This document shows positions 46,943 through 48,156 of a stretch of DNA of 64,000 nucleotides, piece after piece. Under the pieces are notes generated by a model, which was not told the DNA's origin, made no database searches, and was given only the letters and a program-made list of their open reading frames with translations. The stretch is taken from assembly GCA_008729055.1 (NCBI GenBank), contig SDUX01000010.1, positions 3,611,090 through 3,675,089 on the forward strand, in the 5' to 3' direction. This DNA comes from Pyropia haitanensis. Its lineage: Eukaryota > Rhodophyta > Bangiophyceae > Bangiales > Bangiaceae. A program made the translations under genes and the position numbers. Position 1 is the stretch's first letter, and the number at the start of each line of letters is the position of its first letter.

Positions 46943-48156
46943 ATGCAGATCTTTGTGAAGGTACGTTGGCGTGGCGGGCTCTGCCGGTCACGGTTGGCCG
47001 CGGCCATTGCAGACATCTCTTGTTGGGAGCGTGGCCACGGCGGCTGCGACGGTGTTCGTCGCTGCTCCGCGACGTGATCCTCTTCACGCAGCCTGTATTG
47101 GCCGCTGCAACTGCGACCCTTTATCTGCACTGGCGCTGTGGGTGCAGGTGGCGCGGACGTTGGTCTCAGTGGCCCGGGCTGCATTCGTCCAGCCGTTGCG
47201 GGCTCTGCGGCGTGCGGTTTGGGTGTTGGGGTTAGGGGGTACCATTGGATGGAGCTGTGTCTGGTCTTGCCTCTTGATGGTGTGCGTGTCTGCTTGATGA
47301 CGGTGGCGGGCTGGTGTCTGCTTTCCCTGCAGCTTTTGTTCGGCTGTTGACACCATGTCTCATTCACGACTCGTGTTCTTCTTCCTGTGTGCCCTCTCGC
47401 GGTGCCCCACGTGATGTATTTCCCCACAGACCCTGACCGGCAAGACCATCACCCTGGAGGTGGAGTCGTCGGACACCATCGACAATGTGAAGTCCAAGAT
47501 CCAGGACAAGGAAGGGATCCCGCCGGACCAGCAGCGTCTGATCTTTGCGGGCAAGCAGCTGGAGGACGGCCGCACTCTCTCTGACTACAACATCCAGAAG
47601 GAGAGCACCCTGCATCTGGTATGTTGGTCTGTTGTTGTGCTGGCTTCTGGTATGGCGCGCTGGGCTGGTGAGGAGGAGGTGGAATCGTCTCTCGGTCCGC
47701 TTTTTTGGTGGCAGCCAGCTCACATGGTGCGTGCATCGCGTACGTTCTGTTTTGTTGTGGTACTGCTTTCTTGGGTGCCTTTGCCCGTATCGTTTTGTTT
47801 CATGCGACTGTTCCGTCTCATAGGTGCTGCGCCTGCGGGGTGGCGGTGGCAACTCGGATAAGGGCGCGAAGATCTTCAAGATGAAGTGCGCCCAGTGCCA
47901 TTCGTATGAGGCTGGCATCAGCAAGCAGGGCCCCTCGCTGCACGGCCTCTTTGGCCGCAAGAGCGGGACGGTGGAGGGCTTCTCCTACACGGCGGCCAAC
48001 AAGAACTCGGGCATCACGTGGGGCGAGGACACCCTCGGTGAGTACCTGATCAACCCGAAGAAGTACATCCCTGGCACGAAGATGGTGTTCCCCGGCCTGA
48101 AGAGCGCGAAGGACCGCGCTGATCTGATTGCCTTCCTTAAGGGCGCCACCGCCTGA
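46943..48156 (+). CDS. Ubiquitin-cytochrome c fusion precursor
   Basis: Three exons, 46943-46960, 47430-47618 and 47824-48156, are joined by GT-AG introns of 469 and 205 bases into a 179-residue protein. Residues 1-76 are a complete ubiquitin ending LRLRGG; the differences from the animal form (Ser19, Asp24, Ser28) match yeast ubiquitin. The last seven ubiquitin residues (VLRLRGG) and the whole second part lie in one exon with no stop or intron between. Residues 77-179 are a complete cytochrome c: [11 protein letters not shown], haem motif CAQCH (Cys91, Cys94, His95), [20 protein letters not shown], and YIPGTKM with the axial Met, ending [10 protein letters not shown]. No ATG lies at the start of the cytochrome part, and an in-frame TAG (47821-47823) abuts exon 3, so it is made as a fusion unless another first exon exists. 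Cleavage after Gly76 would yield cytochrome c starting with Gly, for electron transfer in mitochondria. Confidence 0.93.

Follow-up and report, generated by a model that had tools for sequence, protein, structure and literature searches.

A complete ubiquitin is fused in frame to a complete mitochondrial cytochrome c in a gene of the red alga Pyropia haitanensis, as was confirmed in the 64-kb stretch of DNA analysed here (64,000 nucleotides, referred to as the window). With high probability it is a ubiquitin-fusion precursor gene, the product of which is cut after Gly76 to release an apocytochrome c that is imported into mitochondria and trapped there by haem lyase. A review describes it as a mystery why ubiquitin is fused almost invariably to one and the same pair of ribosomal proteins (PMC8122580). 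In the present gene, ubiquitin is joined instead to a respiratory protein that is universal and has to be unfolded when it passes a membrane, so that cis-chaperoning, donation of the start codon and coupled supply become testable apart from each other, with fused and unfused close relatives serving as natural controls. For the disputed region of the eukaryote tree in which red algae, glaucophytes and cryptophytes stand (PMC6260743), the distribution of the fusion among these groups may further provide a rare-change character.

Gene structure and the ubiquitin-cytochrome c junction

Translation of the joined open reading frame yielded 179 residues, encoded in frame by three exons with splice sites predicted from homology (Table 1). 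Pfam searches of the product returned ubiquitin (PF00240, residues 3-74, 110.2 bits) and Cytochrom_C (PF00034, residues 81-176, 43.2 bits), bearing out an earlier, sequence-only reading of the window by which both proteins are complete and share one frame. The ubiquitin is N-terminal, comprises all 76 residues and ends in LRLRGG, and the passenger follows directly after Gly76 without a Met, as in ubiquitin-fusion precursors; by sequence, the passenger is a mitochondrial cytochrome c, with a class-I family match, CXXCH and an axial Met. The two proteins had also been placed in the same exon, which holds for the last seven residues of ubiquitin, located in exon 3 together with cytochrome c, but not for the remainder, located in exons 1 and 2.

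Table 1. Features of the fusion gene, in window coordinates
Feature	Position	Strand	Description
Exon 1	46943..46960	+	Start codon and ubiquitin residues 1-6 (MQIFVK)
Intron 1	46961..47429	+	GTACGT..CAG, GT..AG, phase 0, between K6 and T7
Exon 2	47430..47618	+	Ubiquitin residues 7-69 (T7 to L69); PF00240 match
Intron 2	47619..47823	+	GTATGT..TAG, GT..AG, phase 0, between L69 and V70
Exon 3	47824..48156	+	Ubiquitin residues 70-76 (VLRLRGG), cytochrome c of 103 residues, TGA at 48154-48156
Predicted deubiquitinase cut	47842..47847	+	Between Gly76 (47842-47844) and first cytochrome residue Gly (47845-47847)
Haem-attachment motif CAQCH	47887..47901	+	Phe four residues ahead of first Cys
Axial-Met segment YIPGTKM	48064..48084	+	

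The residues of exon 1 match every aligned ubiquitin, with the exceptions of P0002 and P0018 (P numbers refer to proteins from the searches described below). P0001 and P0002 are near-copies of the Pyropia haitanensis fusion protein; in P0002, which is 99% identical over the exon-3 region, exon 2 continues into exon 3 without intron 2, in agreement with the splice proposed for this intron.

Residues 2-102 of the cytochrome part were matched to cytochromes c of the PDB (best E 4.2e-44), with its residue 2 aligned to residue 1 (GDVEKG) of PDB cytochrome c; the GGNSDKG start is thus one residue longer, as the sequence-only reading had stated. The same reading held that the cytochrome part lacks an N-terminal Met of its own and depends on ubiquitin for translation initiation. 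Its first Met is indeed residue 13, adjoining CAQCH, and the final in-frame codon of intron 2 is a TAG stop, so that exon 3 alone would be unable to start a full cytochrome c, and no start codon is apparent other than that of ubiquitin.

About 400 bases separate the fusion gene from the end of a convergent gene downstream (48553-49346, minus strand), which has two Sybindin (PF04099) exons and probably encodes the TRAPPC1 subunit. The long open reading frame upstream (44848-46194, minus strand), which points away from the fusion gene, matched no Pfam or NCBIfam family, and an Rfam scan of the 64-kb window gave no match.

Ubiquitin, cytochrome c and haem-attachment genes of the genome

The genome (52,926,998 bases in 136 contigs) was searched exon by exon, a procedure that very short exons could escape. 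Both the PF00034 profile and a plant-like cytochrome c query (E up to 10) returned a single match, which for the profile was the fusion gene. The search for a second, unfused cytochrome c that the sequence-only reading had proposed therefore ended with one gene in 52.9 Mb; no other was found with either query, except that a gene split into very short exons could be missed. Like searches revealed one cytochrome c1 and one haem lyase (HCCS) gene, but no match for CcmE or CcmH, which is the state reported for Rhodophytina (PMC10879542), and two matches to deubiquitinases of the UCH family.

With PF00240, 22 matches were obtained, consisting of seven polyubiquitin repeats on C3, six on C8, a Ub-L40 on C7, the fusion gene, and weaker ubiquitin-like proteins, one of which we read as a putative NEDD8. 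At the protein level, the ubiquitin of the fusion is identical to 11 distinct polyubiquitin repeats, from which it differs synonymously in 23-26 codons, and it differs by one residue from the Ub-L40 copy of the same genome. Identity in the face of these synonymous differences argues that selection maintains the domain as ubiquitin, and it rules out a decayed ubiquitin. L40 and S27a are encoded by separate genes, and the passenger of the fusion is Cytochrom_C, not eL40 or eS31. The S27a of this genome (L026, G000:C7:877267-877404, minus strand) is fused not to ubiquitin but to a strongly diverged ubiquitin-like domain ending in LRVLGG; divergent S27a ubiquitins are known elsewhere (PMC6332867).

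The phycobilisome linker family gave 11 matches in the genome. One encoded linker protein matches LRC2 over residues 17-412 (5y6p, E 8.6e-142) and 25-413 (6kgx), both presumably red-algal entries, and also matches cyanobacterial linkers, one of them (8imn) with a higher summed score. Together with the cytochrome c relatives, these linkers fit a phycobilisome-bearing host that is most likely a red alga, which the cytochrome c tree by itself would not prove.

Fused and unfused relatives

Three protein searches were performed and the best 120 matches of each retained (2065 matches from 2089 candidates, 7990 from 7994 and 7936 from 7987), resulting in a pool of 254 proteins. At least 19 of these carry the ubiquitin tail LRLRGG joined to cytochrome c, where the occurrence of LRLRGG in all 19 is a consequence of selection by this motif. 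Nine of the 19 listed contain all 76 ubiquitin residues and ten a partial ubiquitin (gene models, introns or contig ends). Organism names were obtained for six: Porphyridium purpureum (P0003), Rhodosorus marinus (P0006, taxid 101924), Purpureofilum apyrenoidigerum (P0008), Galdieria yellowstonensis (P0009), the glaucophyte Cyanoptyche (P0129, taxid 77921) and the cryptophyte Hemiselmis virescens (P0131, taxid 77927). The proposal that related red algae be searched for LRLRGG followed by a cytochrome c was thus fruitful in Porphyridium, Rhodosorus, Purpureofilum and Galdieria, to which the cytochrome part is 71-74% identical; going beyond it, the fusion is common to other red algae, glaucophytes and at least one cryptophyte. 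P0124, the gene name of which we take to be in the style of Cyanophora paradoxa, groups with Cyanoptyche on the cytochrome c tree (100/94). P0006, P0129 and P0131 bear names of transcripts from MMETSP, a transcriptome project (PMC6332867), so that in these the ubiquitin-cytochrome c junction lies on one transcript.

Public records list the Porphyridium purpureum protein as Ubiquitin-60S ribosomal protein L40, the fusion thus being hidden by database names. A search of the literature for accession JP437280 gave no result. A weak structure model of P0003 (13 sequences, pLDDT 75.5, pTM 0.57) has a ubiquitin-like first half and three cytochrome-like helices. P0128 (Nucella lapillus), P0192 and P0193 are high-ranking matches with two cytochrome c stretches and no ubiquitin.

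In the window protein and the 19 listed relatives, Gly76 is followed by G (8), A (6), V (2), I (2), S (1) or T (1), and never by Met or Pro. G, A, V, S and T are residues also exposed by removal of a start Met; Ile, found in two glaucophyte-like members, is not typical of this process. An axial PGTKM or PKTKM is present in all 19 listed, and Phe at position -4 of CXXCH, which haem lyase needs (PMC4158909), in the window protein and 18 of the 19. P0026, a fused protein from a JGI record, has a one-residue deletion between Phe and CXXCH (IFKKCMQCH), with Ile at -4; this type of spacing was poorly handled by haem lyase in published tests.

Close kin with a Met of their own and no ubiquitin are Agarophyton P0017, Palmaria P0027, Rhodomonas sp. 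P0200 (taxid 302021), P0028 and P0030, the last two sharing 86% and 83% identity with the Galdieria cytochrome part. As these proteins do well unfused, cytochrome c can in general function without the fusion, and their occurrence beside fused forms indicates that the fusion was gained or lost repeatedly. Unfused P0200 and fused P0130 are 91% identical and share IPEPDV before the fold, which places the gain or loss of ubiquitin almost exactly at the cut site. Nearly equal N-terminal tails were seen in cryptophyte or cryptophyte-like cytochromes c, whether fused (P0130, P0131) or unfused (P0200, P0223). Survey tables for Guillardia theta and Bigelowiella natans contain no cytochrome c fusion (PMC6332867), which for Guillardia theta is consistent with a mixed state in cryptophytes. 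A tie of the fusion to one haem-attachment system found no support, as fused forms occur alike in Rhodophytina and glaucophytes, which have System III, and in Galdieria, for which System I is implied (PMC10879542).

For the cytochrome c tree, 66 rows and 105 columns were used. The fused state requires 11 changes on this tree, at least eight of them forced by starred branches, compared with an average of 15.9 for shuffled labels. Grouping all 18 fused rows as one clade was rejected (AU p 2.3e-5), a result that nested losses would equally give. A wider group of 30 of the 66 rows (red-like, cryptophyte-like, glaucophyte and unplaced fused), chosen after the tree had been seen and resting on 105 columns, was not rejected (p 0.085) but has a likelihood 27 units lower. 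Neither the grouping of all 16 red-like rows, nine of them so labelled by our own reading (p 0.33), nor that of the six fused red-like rows (p 0.18) was rejected; in the free tree, the window row falls weakly with P0026 and P0019 (88/82), away from other red algae. As cytochrome c is too short, a single early gain followed by several losses, repeated gains, and gene transfer are indistinguishable. We tentatively raise the possibility, itself rather doubtful, that Ub-cytochrome c had a single origin in a common ancestor of the three algal groups (red algae, glaucophytes, cryptophytes) and that several descendants later split it precisely at the cut site; where kept, it would be the sole source of cytochrome c, with ubiquitin output tied one-to-one to its synthesis, and it would be a rare genomic marker for the question whether Cryptista group with Archaeplastida.

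The fusion may also be a neutral accident, an explanation with a substantial but not the better chance of being correct: after capture of cytochrome c by a ubiquitin exon and decay of the original start codon, the product would be expressed and cut without benefit, and the gene could not leave this state before a new Met appeared at the junction. The patchy distribution, with fused and unfused close kin, fits such a history, as does the near-identity in sequence and tail of P0200 and P0130, and neutrality has already been proposed for fusions of this kind (PMC11354881). Retention in red algae, glaucophytes and a cryptophyte speaks against it, as does the strong constraint on the ubiquitin part, although the need for ubiquitin itself could explain the latter.

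Proposed maturation of the precursor and comparison with known systems

For the preferred reading of a ubiquitin-fusion precursor, we infer cleavage, import and any benefit as follows. One spliced mRNA would be translated into Ub-cytochrome c, with ubiquitin giving the start codon and setting the N-terminal residue. A deubiquitinase would cut after Gly76 early, probably during or soon after translation, freeing a working ubiquitin and an apocytochrome c starting with GGNSDKG. The latter would cross the outer mitochondrial membrane, and holocytochrome c synthase would attach haem and trap the apoprotein, in line with the described passage of apocytochrome c through the TOM complex and its trapping by haem lyase (PMC5725982). 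Ubiquitin may in addition act in cis to aid folding or raise yield, a role also suggested for Ub-L40 and Ub-S27a; the cis-chaperone effect described for eL40 and eS31 is modest (PMC8122580). The sequence-only reading had posed the import of apocytochrome c from behind a folded ubiquitin as a puzzle. The answer is probably simple, because in the eukaryotes studied ubiquitin precursors are cut so fast, perhaps during translation, that intact forms go unseen (PMC8122580).

That the fusion instead stays uncut, with ubiquitin as a tag controlling the import or degradation of cytochrome c, appears very improbable: a ubiquitin fusion left uncut can be a degradation signal, and Giardia has a Ub-eS31 that is not cleaved (PMC8122580), but LRLRGG is normal and never followed by Pro in 20 proteins (the window protein and the 19 listed), and ubiquitin, if still attached and folded, would probably impede the entry of an unfolded apoprotein. 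We likewise find it hard to credit that cytochrome c gets its start from another first exon, joined to exon 3 or at a different site, and that the ubiquitin form is minor; splicing to the exon-3 acceptor would in every case leave VLRLRGG ahead of the cytochrome, exon 3 is directly preceded by a stop codon in frame, P0006 and P0129 carry the fusion on single transcripts, and P0002 is without intron 2. An artefact of assembly or annotation is virtually excluded, since the 19 listed relatives, from independent genomes and transcriptomes, share the architecture, which excludes a misassembly or one-gene oddity.

No description of a natural ubiquitin-cytochrome c gene was found among the papers listed by a literature search, in line with the sequence-only reading, although an unremarked entry is possible among the 147 ubiquitin architectures of PMC8122580 (Table S2). 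In the main texts, the word 'cytochrome' is absent from PMC6332867 and PMC8122580, 'cytochrome c' is absent from PMC11354881, and ubiquitin occurs once in PMC10879542, as a promoter.

The gene resembles those for Ub-eL40 (UBA52/UBI1-2) and Ub-eS31/S27a (UBA80/UBI3) in its single N-terminal ubiquitin, Gly-Gly junction, Met-less passenger and expected release by a deubiquitinase, but carries as passenger, in place of a ribosomal protein, a haem protein that resides in the mitochondrial intermembrane space. It is lineage-restricted, in-frame and N-terminal like the ubiquitin fusions of chlorarachniophytes and cryptophytes (actin, NiSOD, P1, HMG box and others; PMC6332867), of which Ub-NiSOD is patchy among algae as is Ub-cytochrome c; cytochrome c is not among the partners in the two tables of that study, and the passenger matches Cytochrom_C only, with no nickel superoxide dismutase. 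With class-I mitochondrial cytochromes c, it shares CXXCH, Phe at -4 and the axial Met, but unlike these it is encoded behind ubiquitin and has no initiator Met. The type, a ubiquitin-fusion precursor, is known; the passenger and its destination are new.
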